Shown here: one piece after another, positions 27,845-40,517 of the stretch
Layout of the letters: each line of letters opens with the position of its first letter
Numbering within the stretch: position 1 is the stretch's first letter
Origin: Paracoccaceae bacterium
Lineage (GTDB): Bacteria > Pseudomonadota > Alphaproteobacteria > Rhodobacterales > Rhodobacteraceae
NCBI GenBank assembly: GCA_014879735.1
Contig: JACSRN010000095.1
Location: 1 to 48,841 of the forward strand
Direction: 5' to 3'
Length of the DNA stretch: 48,841 nt
The notes under the pieces: generated by a model
What the model saw: only the letters and a program-made list of their open reading frames with translations
What the model was told of the DNA's origin: nothing
Databases searched by the model: none
Translations under genes and position numbers: made by a program

Positions 27845-29026
27845 CTACATCGGATCCGGCAGGTCGCAGGCGGGGTTCGCGCCGGTCTGGCGGGCACAGC
27901 ACAGCGCGCGTGCCCGCGGCCCCCAGGGCAGGCCGTAGCAGGCGACGCCGGCAATTCCCTCGCCGGTGGGTGCGCCGAACACCGCCGCATCGGCGCCGAC
28001 CGAGTCTTGCGACAGCCGGTTCAGGAAGTCGATGGTGCGGGCGGTGCGGCCGGGCTCTGGCGTCACGGGAACGCGATGGACCGACCGGAAGGGAATCGCC
28101 TCGAGCGCGGCGATCCGCCAGCCGGCCTTGCCCTTCTGGAAATAGGCCCGGCCGAGCAGGCCATAATCCTGGCCCAGGGGGGCGCTGTCCTTTTCGGCGC
28201 CACCGATGAACAACAGGTTGCCCAGCGAATAGAAGATCGCCTGTCCGCGCGCCGGATCGGCCTCGACCGCGCGGACGACATGGGGATGGTGGCCGATCAC
28301 CAGATTGACCCCCGCCTCATCCAGCGCCCGACGGAAGAGGTCGCGCTGGCCATAGTCGAGCGCGACCATGTTTTCGGTGCCATAATGCAGCGCCAGGATG
28401 CGCAGGTCGACATCGGCCTCGCGCAGGCCTTTCAGGATGGCCGCGTAATGCCTGGGCACCGTCAGATAGGCCAGCCCAACCGGGCCATATTCCGGCCCGC
28501 GGTCGCCCGATCCGAACGAGGCGGAAGCGAAGGCGATGCGGACGCCCCGGATGGTGACGATGGCGGGCGCAAGGGCGGCCTCGCCCCGGCCGATGCCGGC
28601 AAAGACCATTGGCCGGCTCCGCGTCAGGGCCTCGGCCTCGAAGAACGCCAGCGTATCGGCCATGCCCTGACCGCCGTGGTCGGCGGCGTGGTTGTTTGCC
28701 AGGGCAAAGCCGTTGACGCCCAGATCCATCAGGTGGCGAAAGCTGTCGGGGTGACTGCGAAAGACGAAGGTCTTGCCCGGGTCGGGGCCGTTGCGGTCCG
28801 AGACCACGGTCTCGACGTTGATGAAGTTCAGATCGGCATCCCAGAGGGGTGCCAGTGCGGCGGTCGCGGTGTCGATCGGGACCGCGCCGAACTTGTGGAT
28901 CGTGTCGGGCGTGGGGTTCTGGCGCGAGCGGGCGAAATTCACGTCGCCGCCGAAGGAGATGACGATCTCCTGTGCGGGCGCCATGCCGGCCCAGAGCGCG
29001 AAGAAAAGGCTACTGAAGCGCCGCAT
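27845..29026 (-). CDS. CapA-family (PGA_cap) metallophosphatase-like exported protein
   Basis: The 393-residue protein begins with a signal peptide (about 1-19, ending APAQ). The CapA fold is shown by SFGGDVNFAR, NFINVETVVSD, LANNHAADHG, ALHYGTEN, VIGHHPHVVRAV and IFYSLGNLLF, the metal-binding residues of the calcineurin-like superfamily. Relatives include poly-gamma-glutamate capsule proteins and many of unknown substrate. The C-terminus has four cysteines in its last 40 residues (one CC pair), unusual for the family. Its start overlaps the beta-propeller gene by 17 bases. It is the last gene of the eight-gene envelope operon. Confidence 0.88.
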   Translation of the reverse strand: MRRFSSLFFALWAGMAPAQEIVISFGGDVNFARSRQNPTPDTIHKFGAVPIDTATAALAPLWDADLNFINVETVVSDRNGPDPGKTFVFRSHPDSFRHLMDLGVNGFALANNHAADHGGQGMADTLAFFEAEALTRSRPMVFAGIGRGEAALAPAIVTIRGVRIAFASASFGSGDRGPEYGPVGLAYLTVPRHYAAILKGLREADVDLRILALHYGTENMVALDYGQRDLFRRALDEAGVNLVIGHHPHVVRAVEADPARGQAIFYSLGNLLFIGGAEKDSAPLGQDYGLLGRAYFQKGKAGWRIAALEAIPFRSVHRVPVTPEPGRTARTIDFLNRLSQDSVGADAAVFGAPTGEGIAGVACYGLPWGPRARALCCARQTGANPACDLPDPM

Positions 29027-30491
29027 CGGCCAGCCCGTCCTCCGCCCGCGCCCATTGCGCGCCGCCCTCGCCGATGGCGTAGAAAAAGCCGTTCCGGTTG
29101 CCCAGATAGATCACCCCGTCCCAGACCGCGGGCGTGCTTTCCCAGCAGCCCGCACCCACGGGGCGAAACCGCCAGATTTCCTGCGGGTGGGCGGGATCGG
29201 ACAGCGAATAGGCGGTCAGGTCGCCATCGCAATTGCCCAAGAGAAGCTGCTCTGCCACCACCACGGGCGACGACCAGCCATGTGCCGCGGCGGCAATCTC
29301 CTGGGTGATCCGTCCGCTTGCCGCCTCGATGGCGAACAGGCCGCCGGCATGGGTCTGCACATAGAGATGGCCGCGATAGAGCGCGGGCGTGGCCCAGAGG
29401 CCGCCATCGCCCAGATAGGTTTCCGGAAATGCAAGCGACCAATCGAGCGGTGCCTCGGGACGGGTGGGGTTCAGCCGGGCCAGATGGCCTGTGGCGGTCT
29501 TGTCGGTGCTGGCCGGGCGTTCGTCCTCGACCGCGACGTAGATTTCACCCTCGGGCCCGCCGACAAGGGTGGCGTCCACATCGTCGCCCGCGCGCCATTC
29601 CAGCACCAGCGCGGCGTCGCGATCCTGCCCCGACAGCAGCGCCGCGATGTCATAGCCCTGCACCAGCCCGGCGGAATTGGCGAACCAGACCGTACCGCCG
29701 GTTGCCATGGGCGAGTTTTCGATGCTGACCATCCGGTCGCCCACTGCGGCGAAAAGCTCTGCCGTGAAGCCGGGGATGCGGGCGGCCATCTCGGGGGCGA
29801 CGGTCGTGCGCCCGGCGGCATCCTGGCCCCGGTTCAGGCGGATGGCATGGAACCAGCCGTTTTCGCCGCCCTCGAACATCAGGTCGCCCAGGACAAGGGG
29901 ACTGCCGTCCCAGTCGTTGTTCCAGATGCCGTCGGGCGCATTGCCGTTCAGCCGCCAGAGTTCGGTCGCAGCTTCGCTGTCCAGCCGCAGGATACGCAGG
30001 AAGTCGTCGCGCGAACCGGCATAGAGCAGCGGTGCCCCGGTCGGATCCAGCGTGACCGAACCCTTGATGATGTCGCCGGTCACGAAAGGCGGCCGGATGT
30101 CCGTGCCGGTGCGGCTGTCGAGGAAATGGATCGCGTGATCGTAGGCGCCGAAGATCACCTCGGCCGCGTCGGGGCCGGTGGGGCGGATCGCCGGCTGCCC
30201 GGTCCAGCCGGTGCCGCACCATTGCCGGGTGCCGTGCTGGTCGGTCGAGAGGCCGCAATAGGGGCCGGTACGCCAGAGAACCGCGGGATTGCGGGGCAGC
30301 GTGCCGGTGGCATGGCCAGATCGGTCGGGCCTGCCGCGGAAGGTCAGGATGCCGGGCACCCAGTTGTCGGATGTGGCATCGGGAAATGGCCGCAAGACCG
30401 GCGGGTGCAGCAGCGCAAGCGCCATGTCCTGCGCCGCCGCCGGCGTTGCCGCCATCGTCAGTCCCAGCACAAGGCGCAGGCAGGTCCTCAC
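29010..30491 (-). CDS. Exported PQQ-like beta-propeller protein
   Basis: The 493-residue product has a signal peptide (about 1-21, ATPAAAQ). It carries repeated blades in which a Trp and Gly-rich strand recur: VIFGAYDHAIHFLDSRTGTD, LYAGSRDDFLRILRLDSEAA, WATPALYRGHLYVQTHAGGL, LLLGNCDGDLTAYSLSDPAH and IYLGNRNGFFYAIGEGG. These resemble PQQ-type blades, but no quinone-binding or dehydrogenase signature is evident. It may be a scaffold or binding protein (BamB-like only in fold). It overlaps the L,D-transpeptidase gene by four bases and the capA-like gene by 17, so translation is coupled. Confidence 0.8.
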   Translation of the reverse strand: MRTCLRLVLGLTMAATPAAAQDMALALLHPPVLRPFPDATSDNWVPGILTFRGRPDRSGHATGTLPRNPAVLWRTGPYCGLSTDQHGTRQWCGTGWTGQPAIRPTGPDAAEVIFGAYDHAIHFLDSRTGTDIRPPFVTGDIIKGSVTLDPTGAPLLYAGSRDDFLRILRLDSEAATELWRLNGNAPDGIWNNDWDGSPLVLGDLMFEGGENGWFHAIRLNRGQDAAGRTTVAPEMAARIPGFTAELFAAVGDRMVSIENSPMATGGTVWFANSAGLVQGYDIAALLSGQDRDAALVLEWRAGDDVDATLVGGPEGEIYVAVEDERPASTDKTATGHLARLNPTRPEAPLDWSLAFPETYLGDGGLWATPALYRGHLYVQTHAGGLFAIEAASGRITQEIAAAAHGWSSPVVVAEQLLLGNCDGDLTAYSLSDPAHPQEIWRFRPVGAGCWESTPAVWDGVIYLGNRNGFFYAIGEGGAQWARAEDGLADAALQ

Positions 30492-31294
30492 AGATCATCC
30501 CGGAAGAAGACGAAGACCATGCGATAGCCCTCGCGCGTCAGCGGGCTGCCATCCTTGGCATAAAGCAGGCTGCCGTCACGGACATAGCCGGAACGGGCGG
30601 ACATGTCGGTTGTCACCGCAGAAGAGAAATAGCGGGGGATGGTGCCCCAGAGGGGCGAGGCATCGCGCCTTGCGCCTTCGGGATGGATCAATGCCCAGAT
30701 CTTGTCGGCATTTCCCGTCTTCATCCGCACGCAGCCATGGCTGTCGGCGCGGCCAAGCTTGCGGTACTGCCCCTTGGTCGTGCCATGGATCGCCACGCCC
30801 GAGGCCCGGCCGCCGGAATAATGCAGGTCGATGTACAGCGCGTTGTACATGCCGGGCGACCCCCAGCCGGGCCGGTAGCGGCGATCGTCGACGTTGAAGA
30901 TGCCGACGGGGGTGGGCCCCGAGCGGGAATCGCCGGGGTATTTCCGCCCGGTCGAGACGGGCCAGGAATAGGCGGGCACGGCACCGGGGCCGCGCTTCTG
31001 GTCCCAGTACCCTTCGTCATGCAGGGCAAGCTGCCATTCCGCCGCCTCGCCGCGGGCCAGCACCCACATCTTTTGCGTGCCCTCGCCCGACAGCGCGGTA
31101 TTGACATAGATTGCAAGCCGGTAGTCGGCATGCAGGGCCGATGGCGGCAGGTAGGGCTGCCCCTCGGGCAGGTGCAGCGCCTCGAGATAGCCGAGGCCCA
31201 GGTCGGGCTCTTCCGTCGCCCCGGCCGGCCGGGCGCGGGCCAGGGCGGTGGTGGCCAGTCCGGTCAGCAGCAGGCTGCGGCGGGTGATCGGCAT
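30488..31294 (-). CDS. YkuD-family L,D-transpeptidase
   Basis: The 268-residue protein starts MPITRRSLLLTGLATTALAR, a Tat-like twin-arginine export signal; the longer frame from 31399 adds an unlikely leader. The catalytic domain has HGTTKGQYRKLG at 170-181 and SHGCVRM at 185-191, with the nucleophile C188 and H170/H186. L,D-transpeptidases form 3-3 peptidoglycan cross-links or attach proteins to peptidoglycan. It lies 13 bases after the small membrane protein gene and overlaps the beta-propeller gene by four bases. Confidence 0.93.
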   Translation of the reverse strand: MPITRRSLLLTGLATTALARARPAGATEEPDLGLGYLEALHLPEGQPYLPPSALHADYRLAIYVNTALSGEGTQKMWVLARGEAAEWQLALHDEGYWDQKRGPGAVPAYSWPVSTGRKYPGDSRSGPTPVGIFNVDDRRYRPGWGSPGMYNALYIDLHYSGGRASGVAIHGTTKGQYRKLGRADSHGCVRMKTGNADKIWALIHPEGARRDASPLWGTIPRYFSSAVTTDMSARSGYVRDGSLLYAKDGSPLTREGYRMVFVFFRDDL

Positions 31295-31307
31295 GGTCTT
31301 CTCCCTG

Positions 31308-31553
31308 TCACGGACGAGCGCCCAGTCCGGTTGCGCGATGCAGGGCGGCGCGCATATCGCCGAACGGGTCGCCCAAACCCAGCGTGGCCCGCCAGGCATC
31401 GGCCCGGTCGAGGATCGTCAGGATCGTGTCATCGACGCGGCCAAGGTCGGGCATCGCATAGGCCCAGTCGAGAAAGCGCTGCCCCGACAGCAACCAGGCG
31501 ACCGGCAGGCACAGCCACAGGGTCAGGGTGAAGACGGTCATGTGCTGGCGCAT
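31308..31553 (-). CDS. Small one-helix membrane protein of unknown function
   Basis: The 81-residue protein has a single hydrophobic segment at about 6-23 (VFTLTLWLCLPVAWLL), then a hydrophilic tail (DLGRVDDTILTILDRADAWR). A start at the second Met, four codons on, is also possible. I recognise no family. It lies nine bases after the MBOAT gene and 13 before the L,D-transpeptidase gene, so it is very likely a real operon member, perhaps a partner of the acyltransferase. Confidence 0.7.
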   Translation of the reverse strand: MRQHMTVFTLTLWLCLPVAWLLSGQRFLDWAYAMPDLGRVDDTILTILDRADAWRATLGLGDPFGDMRAALHRATGLGARP

Positions 31554-31562
31554 CGCATCTTC

Positions 31563-32951
31563 CTAGAACTGGAAATAGATGAACGGGGCCGTACCCTCTT
31601 GCGAGAGCGCGAAAAGAAACATCGTGCCCGCGGCGAGAATCAGCGCCTGACCGGCCGCCGGAACCCGCGCGGTGCCGGAAATGGTAGCATCGCGCCACGA
31701 AAGCGGCAGGAAATTCATCAGCAGGCCAAGGGCAAGAAGGACAAGCACCACCGGAGCCAGGGCCGGGCCGGTATCGGTGCCCGCGGTCAGCGCGTCGAAC
31801 ATCGCCAGCGCATTGGCGCTGCCATGGGCACGAAACGGCAGCCAGAGCAGCAGGACAAAGCCGAAGGTCGCAAGGATCGCCAGCGGCCGGGGCAGGCGCA
31901 GCCCGGCCGCACGCCCCGCACGCTCGGCCGCCAGACCTGCGCCGTGCAGCGCGCCCCAGAGGATGAAGGTCCAGGCGGCGCCGTGCCAGAGCCCGGCAAT
32001 CGTCATGGTGAAGAACAGCACCGCCGCCTGCCGCCAGGCACTGCCGCGGTTGCCGCCCAGCGGGATATAGAGATAGTCGCGGATGAAACTGGACAGCGAG
32101 ATATGCCAGCGCCGCCAGAATTCCTGCAAGCTGGCCGCGCGATAGGGCTGGTTGAAGTTCGCCTTGAAGCGGTAGCCCAGCAACAGCGCGACGCCGATGG
32201 CGATATCGGAATAGCCCGAGAAATCGCAGTAGATCTGCACGGCATAGCCCAGCAGCGCGGCCCAGGCCATGGCGGCGCCATGGCCCTCGGGCCAGGCGAA
32301 GACCGGGTCGACCAGCATCACCGCCAGATAGTTGGCGATGACCATCTTCTTGAACAGCCCGGTCAGGATCAGCAGCACCGCCTCGGCGCGCAGCGCGGGG
32401 CCGGGAGGCGTGGGCCGGTCGATCTGCGGCAGGAAATCGGCGGCCCGCACGATGGGGCCGGCGACGAGATGGGGGAAAAAGCCGATGTAGAAGGCGACGT
32501 CGACCGGGTTTCGCCGCGCCTCGACCTTGCCGCGCGCGATGTCGACCACATAGCTGATGCCGTGGAAGATGTAGAAGCTGATGCCGACGGGCAGCACGAC
32601 ACCCGCCCAGGCCATGTCCCGCTCCAGCCCCAGCGTGGCAAGCAGCTGGCCGAGCGACAGCATGAAGAAGTTTGCGTATTTGAAGTAGCCAAGGGTGCCG
32701 AGGAAACCCGCGATGGCAATGATCAGCACCGGCCTTGTCCAGCCCGGCCGCCGCACCAGCAGCCCCGCCCCCCAGGCCAGCGCGGTCATCGCCGCCATCA
32801 GCAGCGTCATCCGCGGATCCCAGGCCGCGTAAAACACGTAGGACGCTGCGACCAGCATCGCCTTGCGCCAGCCGGAATGGCCGTCCACCGCAAGGTTCAG
32901 CGCCAGCACGACGGCGAAGAACAGCACGAATTCCAGCGTCGGGAAGACCAT
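31563..32951 (-). CDS. MBOAT O-acyltransferase, AlgI/PatA-like
   Basis: The 462-residue multi-pass membrane protein belongs to the MBOAT family. It has FWRRWHISLSSFIRDYLYIP at about 278-297 and LWHGAAWTFILWGALHG at about 321-337. H323 corresponds to the invariant histidine of this family (the AlgI position). The N-terminus FPTLEFVLFFAVVLALNL is typical. Such enzymes move acetyl groups across the inner membrane for alginate, cellulose or peptidoglycan O-acetylation, usually with an SGNH partner; two SGNH genes lie directly upstream. Its ATG shares one base with the upstream SGNH stop. Substrate is unknown. Confidence 0.92.
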   Translation of the reverse strand: MVFPTLEFVLFFAVVLALNLAVDGHSGWRKAMLVAASYVFYAAWDPRMTLLMAAMTALAWGAGLLVRRPGWTRPVLIIAIAGFLGTLGYFKYANFFMLSLGQLLATLGLERDMAWAGVVLPVGISFYIFHGISYVVDIARGKVEARRNPVDVAFYIGFFPHLVAGPIVRAADFLPQIDRPTPPGPALRAEAVLLILTGLFKKMVIANYLAVMLVDPVFAWPEGHGAAMAWAALLGYAVQIYCDFSGYSDIAIGVALLLGYRFKANFNQPYRAASLQEFWRRWHISLSSFIRDYLYIPLGGNRGSAWRQAAVLFFTMTIAGLWHGAAWTFILWGALHGAGLAAERAGRAAGLRLPRPLAILATFGFVLLLWLPFRAHGSANALAMFDALTAGTDTGPALAPVVLVLLALGLLMNFLPLSWRDATISGTARVPAAGQALILAAGTMFLFALSQEGTAPFIYFQF

Positions 32952-33793
32952 TACTGCAAGGCCGCCAGCAGATCCGGTTCGCGGGGTTCAAGATCGGGAA
33001 AGCGGGCCAGCAGATCATCCAGGATATGATCGGCGACCAGCCGGTAGCCGTAGCCGTTGAAATGCGATCCGTCGCCGGTGCGGATCGTCACCAGATCGTC
33101 GCCGACCTCGATCGCCTTGGCATAGTTGCCATCGGGGTCCGAGGTGAAGGCGGCCAGCGGCAGATAGAGGGCGTTGTGTTTCCCCGCCTCGTCCTGAAAC
33201 AGTGGCGCAATCAGCTTCATGTGCCGCCCGAGGCGCGAATTGCCGTCCGGCGCGGGGCCTAGCCACATCAGCACGATGCCGTTTGCGGCGGCGGTTGCAA
33301 GGATGCGGCGCACCTCGCTGCGGTAGGCGCTCTCCCAGCCTTCGGTGCCGTAGGTGCCGCGGTTCTCGGGGCGCACGACGCCCTGCATGTCATTGGCACC
33401 GAAATGGGCGACCACGATGTCGGGTCTTTCGCTGGCCGCCAGATCGGCAAAGGCCGCGGGCCAGTCGTAGAAATCGCTGCGCGACAGGCCGGTCGAAACC
33501 CGGCCGCGGTTTGCAACGATGATGGCCAGGCCCCGCTCGGCCGCGCGCGCGCGCAGCGCATCGGCGAAACCCTGCGAAAGGCTGTCGCCGATCACCATGA
33601 TCTGTGCCGGCTCTGCGGCGGTGAAGCTGCGGCCGGGGCGCGAGGGCAGTTGCGGCCGCCGCGCCTCGGCAGCGGGGATGGCGGCCGAAAGCGCAGCCCC
33701 CAGATCCTGCGCCGGTGCCGTGGCGCAGCCCGAGACCAGGATTGCGCAGACGGCGGGCAGGATACAGGCAAGGGGGCCGAAGACGCGACGCAT
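32951..33793 (-). CDS. SGNH (DUF459-like) hydrolase, predicted lipoprotein
   Basis: The 280-residue product has a lipobox ILVSGC with C23 as the acylated residue. The SGNH set is GDSLSQG (nucleophile S71), GAND at 132-135 and DGSHFNGYG with D241 and H244. GTEGWESAYRSEVRRIL and MWLGPAP match the DUF459 style. Periplasmic SGNH proteins act with MBOAT proteins as O-acetyl transferases (PatB, AlgX/AlgJ) or as esterases. It is one base from the upstream SGNH gene and shares one base with the MBOAT gene. It is paralogous to its neighbour. Confidence 0.88.
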   Translation of the reverse strand: MRRVFGPLACILPAVCAILVSGCATAPAQDLGAALSAAIPAAEARRPQLPSRPGRSFTAAEPAQIMVIGDSLSQGFADALRARAAERGLAIIVANRGRVSTGLSRSDFYDWPAAFADLAASERPDIVVAHFGANDMQGVVRPENRGTYGTEGWESAYRSEVRRILATAAANGIVLMWLGPAPDGNSRLGRHMKLIAPLFQDEAGKHNALYLPLAAFTSDPDGNYAKAIEVGDDLVTIRTGDGSHFNGYGYRLVADHILDDLLARFPDLEPREPDLLAALQ

Positions 33794-33794
33794 G

Positions 33795-34568
33795 TTATTG
33801 CAGCGCCATCTCGTTCAGCGCGGCATCGGCATCGCGCGCCTTGAGCCGGGCTTCGAGATCGGGTGCGAAGACCGCCACCTCAAGGTCATAGCCCTTTTCG
33901 GTGAAGTGGATCATGTCGGTTGCGCGCAACTGCGTCATCGTGCCGTCGATATCGAGGCTGTGGACGAAGGCGCCGGTGCCGAAAGTGGTTGCCTCGTGCA
34001 AGTCGACGAAGGCGGTGGGCAGCGCGGCCGCGCCGGCGACAACCCCGGCCTGAACGCCAGATACCTCGACATAGGATGGCTCGAGCGTGCTGTCGCCGAC
34101 GATGGGCAGGCCAAGCCAGATCGCCTCGACCGCATGCGGGGCAAGAAGGTCAAGAAGCTCGGCCGCGCGGGCGCCGTAGGCTGCATGCCATTCCGGTGTT
34201 CCGAAGGCGGCGCGGCCGGTTTCGGTGCGCACCGGGCGAATGTCGTTCGCGCCGAACTGGAGGATCACGATATCGGCCGTGACGCCCTCGCCCAGCCTGT
34301 CTGCCACGCGAGCGACCCAGTCGTCGGGGGCGGTGACGGTCAGCCCCTCGGAAACGGCGGTCACGCGGTGCAGCGTGACGGTGGAACAATTGTGCCAGGC
34401 CCGGAAGAGCGAACCCCAGATGCCATCGGCGAGCGAATCCCCAAGGACTGCCACCTGAACCGGCGTTTCCGGGCAATAGAGCGGTTGCGCCGCCAATGGC
34501 GCAGCGAAAGCAAGGGCCGCAGCCGGCAGGGCCAGCGCGGCAGGGCGAAGTCGGGAAAGAAAGGTCAC
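33795..34568 (-). CDS. Exported SGNH (DUF459-like) hydrolase
   Basis: The 257-residue product has a signal peptide (about 1-28, APLAAQ). Catalytic features are GDSLADG (S45), QFGANDIRPV and DMIHFTEKGYD. FGTPEWHAAYGARAAELLDL and IWLGLPIVGDSTLEP are DUF459-type. It differs from the next gene in lacking a lipobox, so it is soluble in the periplasm. Shared motifs suggest a tandem duplication, one copy anchored and one free. It begins eight bases after the CxxC-repeat gene. Confidence 0.87.
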   Translation of the reverse strand: MTFLSRLRPAALALPAAALAFAAPLAAQPLYCPETPVQVAVLGDSLADGIWGSLFRAWHNCSTVTLHRVTAVSEGLTVTAPDDWVARVADRLGEGVTADIVILQFGANDIRPVRTETGRAAFGTPEWHAAYGARAAELLDLLAPHAVEAIWLGLPIVGDSTLEPSYVEVSGVQAGVVAGAAALPTAFVDLHEATTFGTGAFVHSLDIDGTMTQLRATDMIHFTEKGYDLEVAVFAPDLEARLKARDADAALNEMALQ

Positions 34569-34575
34569 GTCGGGG

Positions 34576-36822
34576 TCATCCCTGCTGTTTCAGGCTATCC
34601 AGAAAATCACGGACGGCGCGCACCGTGCCGGGACCGGCGATCCCGTCGGCGCGGCCGGAAAACATGCCGAGATCGCGCAGGTTCTGCTGGATGATCCGGA
34701 CCACATCGTTCGAACGTTCGCCAAGCTGGTCGGTCAGCCGTGCAGCGGCCACGCTGTCGCCGGCCCTGGCGGCCGACCACAGCAGTGCGGCGGCGCTTTC
34801 GGCATCGACGGCAACGGCGCGGCCGGTTTCATACATTTCCGACAGGAAGGGCTGGGCGCGGACATAGCCCGCATCCGCCGCACGGGTAAGCCACTGGAAC
34901 GCTTCGGTATCGTCTGCTGCGACGCCAAGGCCGTTCTGCAGGAAATAGCCCAGGAAGAACTGGCCGACGACATCGCCCTGATCGGCAATGTCGCGCGCAA
35001 TGGCGACGGCCTCGTCCGGCGTATGGCCGGCAACCATGTCGCGGGAATAAAGCAGGATCAGGATTTCCTTCGACAACCAGTCGCCGAGAAGTGCGCCGGC
35101 GCCGGCGATCGCGGCGGCGGTCTCGACATCGGGGATGCTGCCATCGGGCGGGGTGAAGCGCAGATAGGCGGCCAGGCCATGCGCTTCGGGCAGGCCGGCC
35201 GCGACCGCCTCGTCATAGACGGCGGCGGCAAGATCGGCCCGGCCCTCGGCCTGGTCGATGCGCGCGGCCACGACCCTGACCTGCAGGTTCTGCGGCAGTT
35301 CGGCCAGTGCGGCGGCGCAGGCGGTACGGGCGGTGGCAATGTCGATCTCCTCCAGCTGCCGCGGGCCGCCCTGCTGCGGCAGGCCTGCGGCGGCAAGACA
35401 GGGGCCGATCAGCACCTCGGCCTGACGCAACCGTTCGATCTCGGTCTCGACCTCGGCCTTGCCCTCGCAGGTGGTACAGCTTTCCGCCCAGGCGGCCAGC
35501 GCGATACGGTCACGCGCGGCCAGCGCCAGATCGCGTGCGGCGATTTCCGCCTGATAGGCGGCGTCGGCCTCGATCATGGCAAGGGTCTTTTCAGCCGCGG
35601 CCTTGTGATCGCAGGCGATGCAGCCGGCGAGGTAATCGCGCAATGCGGCGGGGTCGCGGTTTGCGGCCGCCGCGGCATAGGCTGCGGCCTCGGCCTCGCG
35701 GGCGGCGGCGGCGGCATCGATCTCGGCAATCCGCCGCCCGGCGGCATCGCGATGGTCGCAGATCGTGCAGCTTTCCAGATAGATCGCCAGCCGGTCGGTC
35801 ACGGTATCCTCGCGGATATCCTCCCAGATCGAATTCTCGAGGCCGCGGGTGATCTCTTCCTGCCGCAGCACGGTCAGCTTCTCGGACAGTTCCGCCTCGC
35901 TGGGGCAGAACACGCAGGATTGCAGAAAGCTGCCGATCCTCTCGGTGGCGGTCGAGCCGAGAAGGAAGCGCGCTTCGAAGGTTTCGCGGAAAAGCTGGCT
36001 TTCAAGTTCGGTCGAAAGCTGGGCGCCGGTCGGCTCGACGACGACGACCGAGGAATCCTGGTCGGCGCGCACCACCAGCGCATAGGTGGTGTTGCACGCG
36101 GCCGACCGGCTGCCCGGGCGGGTCATTGCCGCCGAGATCCAGGCCTCGGCCTCGGCCACGTTGGTCTGGCCGTTGCCATCGCCAAAGGGCGCGCGGTCGG
36201 CCAGGCCGGCGATCAGCGCCACATCGGGCGCGACGCCGGGCCGGCAATCGGCGGGGCGTTCGCCGATCTCGGTCACGATCAAGGCAAAGCCCGACCCGGC
36301 CACCGCCTGCTGAAAGGACGATACCTGCGCCGCGAACAGACCTTCGGGATCCTTGAGGTAGAAAAAGGTCATCTGCCGCTTTTCGGGCGCGACGGCTTCG
36401 ACCAGGGCCGCCAGCCGGGTACCGAATTCGGTAAGCGACATTGCCTCGCCGCCCAGGCCGATGCCGATGGCATCGCCGGCGGTGCCTTCGGCTGTGCGCG
36501 TCACCTCGGCCGTGACGCGGAGAAAGGCCTGGCCGGTGTTGCCGCCCAGGGCTTGCGGTCCGGCGACGAAGCTTGACACCGGGTTCGAGGTCAGAACCGC
36601 CGACAGGAATTCGGTCTTCGCGCGGTCTGCCGTGGGCAGGCGTGGCAGGGCGATCTGCGAAATTCCTTCCAGGGTCGCAGTTGCCTCGTGATCCTGCGAT
36701 CCGATCAGCAACAGCCGCGTGACGGCTGCCGCCGGGGTGGTCTGCGCCGCGACGGGGCTGGTGAAAATGCCATGGGTTGCAAAGGCCGCGGCAAGAATGG
36801 CGGTCATAAATCGGTTCGGCAT
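34576..36822 (-). CDS. Exported multidomain protein: four CxxC repeats, Sel1-like repeats and peptidoglycan-binding C-terminus
   Basis: With the ATG at 36822 (preceded by GAGAGG), the product has 748 residues; a GTG four codons earlier is possible. A signal peptide ends near PVAAQ (27). Residues 30-290 are an unrecognised domain. Then come four repeats with CVFC (303-306), CTIC (352-355), CIAC (401-404) and CTTC (449-452), spaced 49, 49 and 48. Each reads roughly YLxxCxxCdxxxxAexxI. The Sel1/TPR-like helical region (about 515-700) includes QFFLGYFLQNGLGVAADDTE and AFQWLTRAADAGYVRAQPFL. The end, VRIIQQNLRDLGMFSGRADG, is peptidoglycan-binding-type. None of the CxxC motifs is CxxCH, so c-type haem is excluded. 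It is first in the envelope operon. Function unknown. Confidence 0.85.
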   Translation of the reverse strand: MPNRFMTAILAAAFATHGIFTSPVAAQTTPAAAVTRLLLIGSQDHEATATLEGISQIALPRLPTADRAKTEFLSAVLTSNPVSSFVAGPQALGGNTGQAFLRVTAEVTRTAEGTAGDAIGIGLGGEAMSLTEFGTRLAALVEAVAPEKRQMTFFYLKDPEGLFAAQVSSFQQAVAGSGFALIVTEIGERPADCRPGVAPDVALIAGLADRAPFGDGNGQTNVAEAEAWISAAMTRPGSRSAACNTTYALVVRADQDSSVVVVEPTGAQLSTELESQLFRETFEARFLLGSTATERIGSFLQSCVFCPSEAELSEKLTVLRQEEITRGLENSIWEDIREDTVTDRLAIYLESCTICDHRDAAGRRIAEIDAAAAAREAEAAAYAAAAANRDPAALRDYLAGCIACDHKAAAEKTLAMIEADAAYQAEIAARDLALAARDRIALAAWAESCTTCEGKAEVETEIERLRQAEVLIGPCLAAAGLPQQGGPRQLEEIDIATARTACAAALAELPQNLQVRVVAARIDQAEGRADLAAAVYDEAVAAGLPEAHGLAAYLRFTPPDGSIPDVETAAAIAGAGALLGDWLSKEILILLYSRDMVAGHTPDEAVAIARDIADQGDVVGQFFLGYFLQNGLGVAADDTEAFQWLTRAADAGYVRAQPFLSEMYETGRAVAVDAESAAALLWSAARAGDSVAAARLTDQLGERSNDVVRIIQQNLRDLGMFSGRADGIAGPGTVRAVRDFLDSLKQQG

Positions 36823-37273
36823 GCGGCCTCTCACGGTCGGTATGTCGGAAAAGTCTAATTGGCTGCCACCATTCGGCGCAACTGCCTATGTTTCAAAGGG
36901 ATCAACTGCGACCTTCTTGCAGGATCACCGGCATGGACCGACCGAATGGATCAATTTCTGGTAGTATGCTGCGCCGCAGCCACATGCGATTGCGCGGCTG
37001 GTTTGGTGTTGCGAACCGGGCGGGGGAGGCGGGGCCGGGCCGTGGTGGAACCGCAAGCCACCGCAGCCGATTCGTTGCGCAACGAACTGGCCGATCCCGG
37101 CGCGGGATGCGTCAGCGGAGGCCCGGAAGCGGCGCGAGACGGGCTTTTGTCACATTTCGGTGCGGTCTTCGGACCTATGATGGCCGGGACATCGGGGCGG
37201 CAGGACCGTCACCGACGCTTGCGGACGGGAACCAAGCCGGCTCCGTCCGGTGCAAACAGAAGGACGGGTGAGA
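36823..37273. other. 451-base divergent intergenic region
   Basis: This lies between the envelope operon (leftward) and the LpxH-like gene (rightward). The open frames on the plus strand are Arg/Cys-rich and unlike real proteins, so I call no gene. It holds the possible operon promoter at 36852-36881. A GTG at 37250 would add eight residues to the LpxH-like protein. A relatively AT-rich patch at 36840-36970 is where promoters for both directions would be expected. Confidence 0.5.
36852..36881 (-). promoter_or_regulatory. Possible promoter for the envelope operon
   Basis: On the minus strand TTGCGC (36881-36876) and TAGACT (36857-36852) are 18 bases apart. It would start transcription about 23 bases before the first ATG of the operon. 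The -35 is weak. Confidence 0.35.
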
Positions 37274-38185
37274 ATGCAGGCAGTGCAGGAGACGATGCAG
37301 CGCAAGACCGGGACGGCGGCAGGAACCGCCGCAAATCGCATCGATACCGGCGGGCGCCGCACCCCTTCCCCGGGCGATAGCCGGCCGATTCGCCGCCGCC
37401 TGCGCAGTCTTTTCGTCTCGGATCTGCATCTAGGCACGCTCGGCGCGCAGGCGCGGCCCTTTCTCGATTTCCTGAGCGAAACCGAATGCGAGACGATCTA
37501 CCTCGTCGGCGATATCTTCGACATCTGGCACGGGGCTTTCCTGAGCTGGTCGCCGGTCCATGACGCGATCATCGCCGAACTGGACGCAAGGGCGGCCGCG
37601 GGAACAAGGATCGTCTACCTGCCCGGCAATCACGACGCGGCTATGCGGAACGTTGTCGGCATCGGGGCCGGCGCCGCGATGGGTGGCCGGTTCGAGGTGC
37701 AGGACATGCTGACCCATGTTGCCGCGGACGGCCGGCGCTATCTGGTGCTGCACGGCGACCAATGCGATGCGCGCGTCCTGCGCTGGCATGCGATGACCCG
37801 GATTGGCAGCCGGCTTGATGCCGGGCTGCGCCACTTCGAGGGCTGGCTGTCGCGGATGTTGCGCCCGGCCGCGGGGGGCTGGGGCGGGCTGGATCTTCTG
37901 CGCCAGGGACTGGCACAGCTTCTCCTTGTCGGGAACCGCTTCGAGCAGCGCCTTGTCGCGCTGGCGCGAGACAGCGGTCACGACGGTGTGATCTGCGGCC
38001 ATTTCCATCGCGCGGCGCTGCGCGACCATGGTGCGATCACCTATGGCAATTGCGGCGACTGGGTCGACAGCCTGACCGCGCTGGCCGAGATGCCGGACGG
38101 CAGGCTGACGGTTCTCGAATGGGCGGCCGACATCGCGCCCCTGGCCGACTGCAACCGCAATCCCGGGCTGGGCGCGATGGCATGA
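37274..38185 (+). CDS. UDP-2,3-diacylglucosamine diphosphatase-like metallophosphoesterase (LpxH-like)
   Basis: The 303-residue product (ATG at 37274 after AAGGACGGGTGAGA) is a calcineurin-like phosphoesterase with the LpxH pattern: SDLHLGTLG, LVGDIFDIWHG, LPGNHD, VLHGDQCDARV, GHFHRAAL and YGNCGDWVDS. The first 50 residues are a Gln/Arg/Thr-rich extension without clear homology. LpxH splits UDP-2,3-diacylglucosamine in lipid A synthesis; many alphaproteobacteria use LpxI instead and keep LpxH-like paralogues of unknown role, so function is not certain. It diverges from the envelope operon and converges on rpoD. Confidence 0.82.
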   Translation: MQAVQETMQRKTGTAAGTAANRIDTGGRRTPSPGDSRPIRRRLRSLFVSDLHLGTLGAQARPFLDFLSETECETIYLVGDIFDIWHGAFLSWSPVHDAIIAELDARAAAGTRIVYLPGNHDAAMRNVVGIGAGAAMGGRFEVQDMLTHVAADGRRYLVLHGDQCDARVLRWHAMTRIGSRLDAGLRHFEGWLSRMLRPAAGGWGGLDLLRQGLAQLLLVGNRFEQRLVALARDSGHDGVICGHFHRAALRDHGAITYGNCGDWVDSLTALAEMPDGRLTVLEWAADIAPLADCNRNPGLGAMA

Positions 38186-38426: not shown

Positions 38427-40433
38427 CTACTGGTCGAGGAAACTGCGCAGCTTCCGGCTTCGGCTTGGATGTTTCAGCTTGCGCAGCGCCTTGGCTTCGA
38501 TCTGGCGGATGCGCTCGCGGGTGACGCTGAATTGCTGGCCCACCTCTTCCAGCGTATGGTCGGTGTTCATGCCAATGCCGAAACGCATCCGCAGCACACG
38601 TTCCTCGCGCGGGGTGAGCGACGCCAGAACCCGGGTCGTGGTTTCCTTCAGGTTTTCCTGAATGGCCGAATCCAGCGGCAGGATGGCGTTCTTGTCCTCG
38701 ATGAAATCGCCAAGCTGGCTGTCTTCCTCGTCTCCGATCGGCGTTTCCAGCGAGATCGGTTCCTTGGCGATCTTCATCACCTTGCGAACCTTCTCCAGCG
38801 GCATCTGCAGCTTTTCGGCCAGTTCCTCGGGCGTCGGCTCGCGGCCGATCTCATGCAGCATCTGCCGGCCGGTGCGCACCAGCTTGTTGATCGTCTCGAT
38901 CATATGCACCGGAATGCGGATGGTACGGGCCTGATCGGCGATGCTGCGCGTGATGGCCTGCCGGATCCACCATGTTGCATAAGTGGAAAACTTATAGCCG
39001 CGGCGATATTCGAACTTGTCGACCGCCTTCATCAGACCGATGTTGCCTTCCTGAATGAGATCAAGGAATTGCAGCCCGCGGTTGGTGTATTTCTTGGCGA
39101 TGGAAATGACGAGGCGAAGGTTCGCTTCCACCATTTCCTTCTTGGCCTGGCGGGCCTCTTTCTCGCCCTTCTGCACCTGGTTCACGATGCGGCGGAACTC
39201 GCTGATGTCGACGCCGACATACTGGCCGACCTGCGCCATTTCGGCGCGCAGATCTTCCACCTTGTCGCGGCTCTTCTCCATCAGCGTCTGCCAGCCGCGG
39301 CCCACCTTGACCGACATCCGCTCGCACCAGCCGGGATCAAGCTCGTAGCCCTGATACTCGGCGATGAATTCCTGACGGTTGATCCGTGCGGCATCCGCCA
39401 GCTTCACCATGCCAGAGTTGATCGACATGATCCGCTTGTTGATGCCGTAAAGCTGGTCGATCAGCGCTTCGATCCGGCTGTTGTTCAGGTGCAACTCATT
39501 CACCAGCAACACCATTTCGGCGCGCAGCTTCTGATAGGCTGCCTCCTCGGCGGTGGTGAAGCGTTCGGAATGCGACATGGTGGCCGACATCCGCTGTTCC
39601 TGCATGGTGGACAGCGAATCGTAATTGGCCGCGATATGTTCCAGCGTCTCCAGCACCTTGGGGCGCAGCGTCGCTTCCATCGCGGCAAGCGAGAGGTTCG
39701 ACCCCTCGTCGTCGTCATCGGCGTCTTCCGGATCCTCATGCGCGATGGGGTTTCCGTCGGCGTCAAGCTCGGGCTCGGCGCTGGCCGGGCGACGCGGGGC
39801 CGAGGATGCGACAACCCCGACCTCGTCGAGGGGCGCGCCCTCCATCTCCTCGTCGCCATCCAGGCTGCGGCCGAAGGTGGCCTCGAGGTCGATCACATCG
39901 CGCAGAAGGATGTCCTCGGACAGCAGTTCGTCGCGCCAGATGGTGATGGCCTGGAAGGTCAGCGGGCTTTCGCAAAGCCCCGCGATCATCGTGTTGCGCC
40001 CGGCCTCGATCCGCTTGGCGATGGCGATCTCGCCCTCGCGGCTGAGGAGTTCCACCGAACCCATCTCGCGCAGGTACATGCGCACCGGATCGTCGGTACG
40101 ATCCAGCGTTTCGGACGTGCCGCCGGCCAGCGCGATCTCGCGCGAGGAGGAGGTGTCGACCAGTTCGCCGCCCTTGGGCTGTTCCGGCTCCTCGTTCTCG
40201 TCGCCTTCCTCGTCCACCCGGATGCCCATGTCGTCGAGCATGGCGAGGATGTCCTCGATCTGGTCGGACGAGGCCTGTTCTGAGGGCAGCACCGCATTCA
40301 GCTGCGACATGGTGATGAAGCCACGCTCCTTCGCGTCGGCGATCATCTTCTTGACGGCTGCCTGCGACATGTCGAGCGAGACATCTGCCTCTTCGGTCTC
40401 GGGCTTGGCGTCGTCGGTGTCCTTGAGGGCCAT
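38427..40433 (-). CDS. rpoD: RNA polymerase housekeeping sigma factor RpoD (sigma-70)
   Basis: The 668-residue product has region 1.1, an acidic linker, region 1.2 ([20 protein letters not shown]), a long non-conserved acidic insertion, region 2 ([20 protein letters not shown] and [20 protein letters not shown]), region 3 and region 4 ([20 protein letters not shown], ending with [17 protein letters not shown]). The start at 40433 follows AGGAGCAGAC, a strong ribosome binding site; an in-frame start at 40496 lies in the repeated upstream region and is rejected. It lies 81 bases after dnaG on the same strand. Four GANTC sites precede it. Confidence 0.97.
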
Positions 40434-40452
40434 GTCTGCTCCTGCGGGAAGT

Positions 40453-40517
40453 GCGAATCGCGCGCGTGTGATCGGCGAATCAATACCGCGAATCACGGCG
40501 GGTTAAAGGGCGAATCA
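40453..40517. promoter_or_regulatory. Four GCGAATC(A/G) repeats with GANTC sites upstream of rpoD
   Basis: The octamer GCGAATCA occurs at 40475, 40488 and 40510, and GCGAATCG at 40453. Start-to-start distances are 22, 13 and 22. Each copy contains GAATC, a CcrM-type GANTC methylation site. They fill the dnaG-rpoD gap and reach the dnaG stop codon. This may be a methylation-responsive or protein-binding regulatory region for rpoD. Confidence 0.5.

Follow-up and report, generated by a model that had tools for sequence, protein, structure and literature searches.

Gene organization of the locus

We analyzed 48,841 nucleotides of contig JACSRN010000095.1 (assembly GCA_014879735.1, Paracoccaceae bacterium), called the window below, and focused on an operon of eight genes at positions 27845-36822. 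Its central genes encode two SGNH proteins, an MBOAT protein and a microprotein, a core that resembles the PatA/PatB-type clusters of peptidoglycan O-acetylation. All eight open reading frames (ORFs) were located on the minus strand; lengths are in amino acids (aa).

Gene 1, 34576..36822, minus strand: exported scaffold of 748 aa, with a predicted pseudo-caspase domain (~30-270), four CxxC helical repeats, TPR/Sel1 repeats and a C-terminal PG_binding_1 domain
Gene 2 (SGNHa), 33795..34568, minus strand: DUF459/PatB-like protein of 257 aa, proposed O-acetyltransferase
Gene 3 (SGNHb), 32951..33793, minus strand: DUF459/PatB-like protein of 280 aa, probably a lipoprotein and proposed to be either an esterase or a second transferase
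Gene 4 (PatA-like MBOAT), 31563..32951, minus strand: 462 aa, with a C-terminal FIYFQF acyl-shuttle motif
Gene 5 (microprotein), 31308..31553, minus strand: 81 aa, single transmembrane (TM) segment, member of a family associated with PatA-like MBOATs
Gene 6 (YkuD L,D-transpeptidase, LDT), 30488..31294, minus strand: twin-arginine-type N-terminus
Gene 7 (PQQ/BamB-like beta-propeller), 29010..30491, minus strand: accessory, in 8 of 26 loci, Pfam matches under the cut-offs
Gene 8 (PGA_cap/CapA-like protein), 27845..29026, minus strand: metallophosphatase fold, accessory, in 18 of 26 loci

The spacings between consecutive genes from gene 1 to gene 8 were 7, 1, -1, 9, 13, -4 and -17 bases, where the fifth value (13 bases) takes the ATG at 31294 as the start of LDT. 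The alignment favored this start over that of the longest ORF at 31399, with which LDT and gene 5 would share 92 bases. Gene 1 had an alternative in-frame GTG at 36834. These coordinates and spacings agreed with a preliminary description of this DNA, in which eight minus-strand genes with small gaps or overlaps were reported. The domain names given there were each backed by Pfam, the propeller only by matches below the cut-offs.

Conservation of the gene order

When gene 1 was used as query, matches appeared in 85 of the 121 genomes of the order. Nearly all of them arose from the Sel1 region, with full-length matches only in G000 and G065, and gene 3 was therefore chosen as the probe. Gene 3 had matches in 3 of 121 Rhodobacterales genomes and in 13 of 394 family genomes, six of them strong (E 4.5e-93 or better), which ruled out a general Rhodobacterales system. 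No match was found in G435, the sole listed genome of the genus of the window.

A seven-sequence profile of gene 3 was scanned over the species-genome collection and gave 85 places with a relative, of which 80 were kept. The preliminary description had stated that its proposal would fail if these genes were rarely found together elsewhere; the scan did not refute it in this way. Among the best 25 of the 80 places, all 25, each with a gene 3 relative of at least 42% identity, held the colinear set, whole or in part. Their titles gave either Rhodobacteraceae or Rhodobacterales or a genus assigned to them, among others Pseudooceanicola, Jannaschia, Wenxinia, Roseovarius, Oceanicola, Roseisalinus, Psychromarinibacter, Maritimibacter and Pseudoruegeria. 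Cultured strains with the operon include Wenxinia marina DSM 24838 (L078) and Jannaschia pagri AI_62 (L077). In the remaining 55 places the operon was absent by BLAST, although many had an MBOAT beside a DUF459 gene.

The locus counts below refer to 26 loci, the window and L071-L095; L042, L005 and L063-L066 were taken as repeats of counted loci and left out. One order on one strand was observed in all 26: CxxC protein, SGNHa, SGNHb, MBOAT, microprotein, LDT, a second CapA-like gene (gene 9), propeller and CapA. Members may be missing from a locus, and the order was constant. A chance row of genes was ruled out by this colinearity. Genes 2-5 were present in every locus, and gene 1 in 24 (23 of the 25 besides the window), with L075 cut by a contig end and L095 lacking the gene. 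The other genes were more variable: 19 loci had gene 6, 18 had gene 8, 12 had gene 9 (not in the window, which gives a nine-gene set overall) and 8 had gene 7, where the contig of L080 ends inside gene 6 so that its downstream genes are not visible. Six loci ended after gene 5 despite 1,157 to 8,362 bases of further downstream sequence. The flanking genes divided the 26 loci into 16 sets without a common neighbor on the same side, according to our own gene caller and with short or one-sided flanks in L071, L075, L079 and L080. The gene set was counted in at least twelve distinct genomic contexts. The fixed order within varying surroundings and membership is the pattern expected of a functional module. 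The operon is patchy in the Rhodobacteraceae. No description of it was found in the open-licence PMC literature among the matches listed.

By eye, the five-gene core lay beside genes like those of a Na-translocating NADH:quinone reductase in L083, L085, L086 and L087 (Pseudooceanicola marinus, Oceanicola sp. S124 and one metagenome-assembled genome, MAG).

Active-site motifs of the MBOAT and SGNH proteins

The MBOAT matched the Pfam MBOAT family (1.3e-26). Passages of PMC12148441 describe PatA by a C-terminal FXYXXF acyl-shuttle motif and an essential His, and both were found in gene 4. All 26 MBOATs ended in FIYFQF, and the His motif WHG was likewise invariant (GLWHG in 23, GFWHG in 3). A PF03062 search of the own genome gave a single match, gene 4 itself, so no second MBOAT was found there. 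The best NCBIfam match was DltB, below its cut-off.

Both SGNH proteins scored above the cut-off for Pfam DUF459 (SGNHa 3.4e-38, SGNHb 2.5e-50), which is the PatB family according to a passage of PMC9487903. PDB matches of SGNHa were PatB or DUF459 structures only. For SGNHb, PatB structures were the best matches (E 2.8e-19), and the gene 3 profile gave one further, weak match to a GDSL structure. The Ser-Asp-His triad and the block III Asn were intact in both proteins in all 26 loci; in SGNHa these were Ser45, Asn108, Asp218 and His221. An oxyanion feature of PatB is a block II residue other than Gly, either Ser or Asn, as stated in part of PMC12148441. This residue was Ser in SGNHb in 26 of 26 loci and in SGNHa in 25 of 26 (Gly in L072). 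The two proteins differed at the residue preceding the catalytic His. It was Ile or Val in every SGNHa, which corresponds to the hydrophobic wall of PatB, and Ser in every SGNHb, which does not. A crude pattern search picked up a lipobox-like motif in 22 of the 26 SGNHb N-termini, which had been trimmed.

In a tree of 57 DUF459 domains (19 of the 26 pairs and 19 outside rows), SGNHa and SGNHb fell into separate groups with support of 100/100 and 100/99. They are therefore old paralogues that occur together. Beyond the 26 loci, MBOAT-linked DUF459 proteins mostly carried DG[VI]H or D[LF][VI]H at this position. In G490 (L205), from another family, a DRIH-type and then a DGSH-type DUF459 gene preceded the MBOAT, which was followed by the microprotein, so the SGNH pair with the Ser signature is not confined to the family of the window.

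Other arrangements were also seen. A simpler version was present in two genomes of the same family (G192, L067:9052-11718; G224, L068:4162-6618), consisting of one DUF459 gene, an MBOAT gene whose product ends in FIYFQF and a short ORF with a single TM segment. A Thermoleophilia MAG (L101:3195-9871) had a tandem pair of MBOAT-DUF459 units with MBOATs ending in FLYFKF. In Akkermansia MAGs (L105:6859-12686, L115:6252-10296), one MBOAT was followed by two or three DUF459 ORFs, showing that the number of SGNH partners per MBOAT is variable elsewhere too.

Proteins encoded beside related MBOATs

Gene 5, which had been left unnamed in the preliminary description, encodes 81 aa with one hydrophobic segment. 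No Pfam family was assigned to any of 27 members. It directly followed the MBOAT gene in all 26 loci, with at most 13 bases between the two in 21 loci and 41-492 bases in the other 5. Gene 5 sequences and look-alikes located downstream of other MBOATs were combined into a profile of 27 rows, which was searched against 289 alphaproteobacterial genomes, and 30 of the 41 listed matches had loci and were examined. The 11 best of these (E up to 4.2e-6) were all located just downstream of an MBOAT with APFIYFQF (the MBOAT of L156 was split by an X stretch); the profile rows had themselves been picked from behind MBOATs, and two of the 11 (G000 and G602) were already in the profile. Nine were new to it and came from seven families. 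The other 19 examined matches (E 3.1e-4 and weaker) had no MBOAT in the locus. FXYXXF was missing from the gene 5 alignments, so the microprotein was rejected as a DltX-type acyl carrier. The simplest role would be a structural subunit of the PatA-type enzyme. The family had no description in the open-licence PMC literature among the matches listed.

The neighborhood was also viewed from the MBOAT side. A profile of the operon's MBOAT was searched against the 289 genomes and gave matches with E of 1e-60 or lower in 84; for 30 of these genomes the best match was examined. Fifteen of these MBOATs, including that of the window, scored above 500 bits, a line chosen after the scores had been seen. 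The microprotein stood beside 13 of the 15, with L191 lying near a contig end and L198 lacking it; L205 was positive too, and none was found at the 14 other examined MBOAT loci.

An Ape1-like protein was encoded upstream of the MBOAT in 13 of the 14 non-window loci above 500 bits. Two of the 13, L190 (the same locus as L097) and L201, had provided the Ape1-like queries, and some of the genomes examined are congeneric (L193/L196, L194/L195, L198/L200, L201/L202). The remaining locus, L189, had no Ape1-like protein within its flank. Both query proteins matched PDB 4k3u (E 5.5e-22 and 9.8e-20), which we take, together with 4k40, 4k7j and 4k9s, to be Neisseria meningitidis Ape1, the codes being unconfirmed. 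NCBIfam assigned no Ape1 name to the Ape1-like neighbors. In the operon, no Ape1-like gene was found in any of 26 loci (blastp at E 1e-6, two Ape1-like queries, ORFs of at least 100 aa). SGNHb occupies the slot directly before the MBOAT, where the relatives have the Ape1-like protein. Because of this position, the absence of Ape1-like proteins and the Ser signature, SGNHb became a candidate esterase.

A Hyphomicrobiales MAG (L122:2414-7829) had two DUF459 genes in a row, then an Ape1-like gene, then the MBOAT. Near-identical MBOAT clusters, with an Ape1-like protein of 97% identity, were found in L104:943-4150, filed as an Anaerolineae MAG, and in L097:10645-13852, an alphaproteobacterial MAG. 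Owing to this near-identity, the L104 contig is probably misbinned.

The scaffold and the accessory proteins

Gene 1 matched Sel1 (3.9e-12) and PG_binding_1 (3.8e-6) in Pfam and had four CxxC motifs at residues 303, 352, 401 and 449. An alignment was made of 21 of the 24 sequences, leaving out L071 (split frame), L087 and L090 (incomplete). PG_binding_1 was present in 20 of these 21. The N-terminal domain (~30-270) was predicted to have a caspase fold, and structure-comparison results were from VIA-align only. The His-Cys dyad of caspases was absent: within residues 30-270 no column had His in more than 14 of 21 sequences, and in the window this residue is Asp. Two cysteines, Cys193 and Cys243, were kept in 21 of 21. 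An active caspase was ruled out by the lack of a conserved catalytic His, and the domain was described as a predicted pseudo-caspase. An ORF of L042, which formed a 16% row of the gene 1 alignment, was a shadow of a gene on the opposite strand and was removed; this locus shares its contig with L095 and lacks gene 1.

LDT matched YkuD (2.8e-16, 60.8 bits against a cut-off of 23.4) and carried SHGCxR, which contains the SHGC catalytic motif of YkuD L,D-transpeptidases, in 19 of 19 sequences. The RR motif of its twin-arginine-type N-terminus was likewise kept in 19 of 19. It was one of 11 YkuD proteins in the own genome. The propeller had two Pfam matches, both under the cut-off (Beta-prop_ACSF4, 2.6e-13, 50.5 bits against 133; PQQ_2, 4.2e-6, 27.0 against 27.6). 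Matches to it were found in 3 of 121 genomes of the order, one of them marginal, and a plasmid search gave one weak archaeal match. Gene 8 matched PGA_cap/CapA (5.7e-45) and had a weak, distant likeness to PDB 8gq9 (E 1.2e-5). Metal-type residues Asp28, Asn112-His113, His214, His247 and His249 were invariant in 18 sequences. The second CapA-like protein (gene 9) was recognized by BLAST to gene 8 and also conserved metal-type residues.

A scan for promoters and terminators gave no sigma-70-like sites (expected 0.9) and seven terminator-like sites (expected 5.4). Upstream of the operon (37250-38185 and 38427-40496), a divergent metallophosphoesterase-like gene and a sigma-70-factor-like gene were seen by eye.

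Discussion

The operon shared several features with the O-acetylpeptidoglycan (OAP) cluster PatA/PatB/Ape1 of Neisseria and Campylobacter: adjacent genes, an MBOAT with a C-terminal FXYXXF and a catalytic His, and a DUF459 SGNH protein with an intact triad and a block II residue other than Gly. In contrast to that cluster, it has two DUF459 proteins, both below the PatB equivalog cut-off, and no Ape1-like gene, and it adds the microprotein, the Sel1/CxxC scaffold, the YkuD enzyme and the CapA-like and propeller proteins. Zymomonas mobilis is an alphaproteobacterium. In its OAP cluster, ape2 and ape1b stand upstream of pat, as given in part of a 2005 survey (PMC1199599), and ape2 was later renamed patB (passage of PMC9487903). 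The position of ape1b there resembles that of the Ape1-like proteins in L190-L202, whereas the operon has SGNHb in place of an Ape1-like gene, plus genes 1, 6, 7 and 8 and the second CapA-like gene. The DltB/DltD/DltX system of teichoic acid D-alanylation also combines an MBOAT, an SGNH protein and a single-TM microprotein. However, FXYXXF in the operon is on the MBOAT and not on gene 5, and no DltA- or DltC-like protein was found among the eight products by Pfam.

Judged from these sequence features, the operon fairly probably encodes a peptidoglycan O-acetylation system of the PatA/PatB type with an enlarged set of periplasmic proteins. The preliminary description had proposed an envelope acylation and remodelling pathway, which was supported by the MBOAT and SGNH motifs and the colinear loci. 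The combination of genes was not recognized there as a known system; its core can be recognized as a PatA/PatB-type cluster. It had also left the substrate as either peptidoglycan or an exopolysaccharide. Peptidoglycan is the likely substrate, because the core is of the PatA/PatB type, with the acyl-shuttle motif and PatB-type active sites, and an Ape1-like esterase is found in the wider relatives; an exopolysaccharide was less favored.

In this PatA/PatB-type scheme, the MBOAT would load acetyl from cytoplasmic acetyl-CoA onto its own Tyr459 in FIYFQF, by analogy with PatA. Ser45 of SGNHa would receive the acetyl group and hand it to MurNAc of peptidoglycan. SGNHb, a PatB paralogue with Ser instead of Ile or Val before the His, would remove the acetyl group and so replace Ape1, which is the least certain step. 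The microprotein would join the MBOAT and SGNH proteins as a structural subunit, and gene 1 would serve as a scaffold in the periplasm and keep the enzymes attached to peptidoglycan. LDT would cross-link or anchor at the same sites, with the CapA-like and propeller proteins as accessories. A broader proposal is offered tentatively: the gene 5 family might be an obligatory third membrane subunit of alphaproteobacterial PatA-type enzymes, and the Rhodobacteraceae might have a complex with a PatB paralogue in place of Ape1, in which O-acetylation, de-O-acetylation and L,D-cross-linking run from one peptidoglycan-bound pseudo-caspase/Sel1 scaffold.

Two other explanations were weighed. The combination of one MBOAT, two SGNH proteins, an extra partner and a Sel1/TPR protein is like the alginate machine AlgI-AlgJ-AlgF-AlgX with AlgK. 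The MBOAT could accordingly pass the acyl group to one SGNH protein (AlgJ-like) and from there to the other (AlgX-like) on peptidoglycan or another polymer, with the microprotein in the role of AlgF, the Sel1 protein in that of AlgK, and neither SGNH protein an esterase. We regarded this two-step relay as unlikely. AlgX belongs to another SGNH family than DUF459, according to a passage of PMC9487903, and AlgF consists of two beta-sandwich domains, as described in part of PMC10641220, in contrast to the 81 aa and single hydrophobic segment of gene 5. No polymer synthase or glycosyltransferase, as expected for an alginate-type system, was found by Pfam among the eight products. The acylated polymer could also be an exopolysaccharide or lipopolysaccharide made by genes elsewhere, with LDT and the peptidoglycan-binding domain merely anchoring the machine. 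The patchy occurrence of the operon would fit such a substrate. However, the Ape1-like neighbors in the wider relatives, the LDT and PG_binding_1 in the operon, the match of the DUF459 proteins to PatB and the lack of a polymer synthase all argue against it, and this explanation appeared distinctly improbable.

Several observations weighed against the peptidoglycan O-acetylation scheme itself. The MBOAT reached no NCBIfam equivalog cut-off, and neither SGNH protein reached the PatB equivalog NF045704 (87.7 and 47.2 bits against 580). SGNHb is overall nearer to PatB than SGNHa, which fits badly with SGNHb as the protein that changed its job, and it also has the transferase-type Ser in block II. 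The argument for an esterase from the residue before the His concerns one position only. Exceptions at this position occurred in other MBOAT-linked DUF459 proteins: Ala in L099 and L102, Thr in one of two in L122, Glu in one of two in L101 and Phe in L148, with further ones in the Akkermansia loci L105 and L115. A DGSH protein in L096 (Verrucomicrobia) had no MBOAT in its flanks. An Ape1 search of the own genome was empty, but lacked a positive control; the retrospective 500-bit line and the two query loci among the Ape1-positive ones count in the same direction. LDT was absent from 7 of 26 loci, each with more than 1,100 bases beyond gene 5, which meant that coupling to cross-linking is optional. 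The CapA-like and propeller proteins do not yet fit the proposed scheme.

Peptidoglycan O-acetylation controls the action of lysozyme and autolysins, and its mechanism is known mainly from Neisseria and Campylobacter, according to passages of PMC12148441. The operon would represent a version of this modification in the Rhodobacteraceae, with type strains among the carriers. The microprotein, the second SGNH protein, the gene 1 scaffold and LDT would be additions to the textbook system. The microprotein may be a subunit of PatA-type enzymes that so far has no name, and the operon offers a test of the change from SGNH transferase to esterase through one residue before the catalytic His. These results suggested that O-acetylation may be tied to L,D-cross-linking within one operon.

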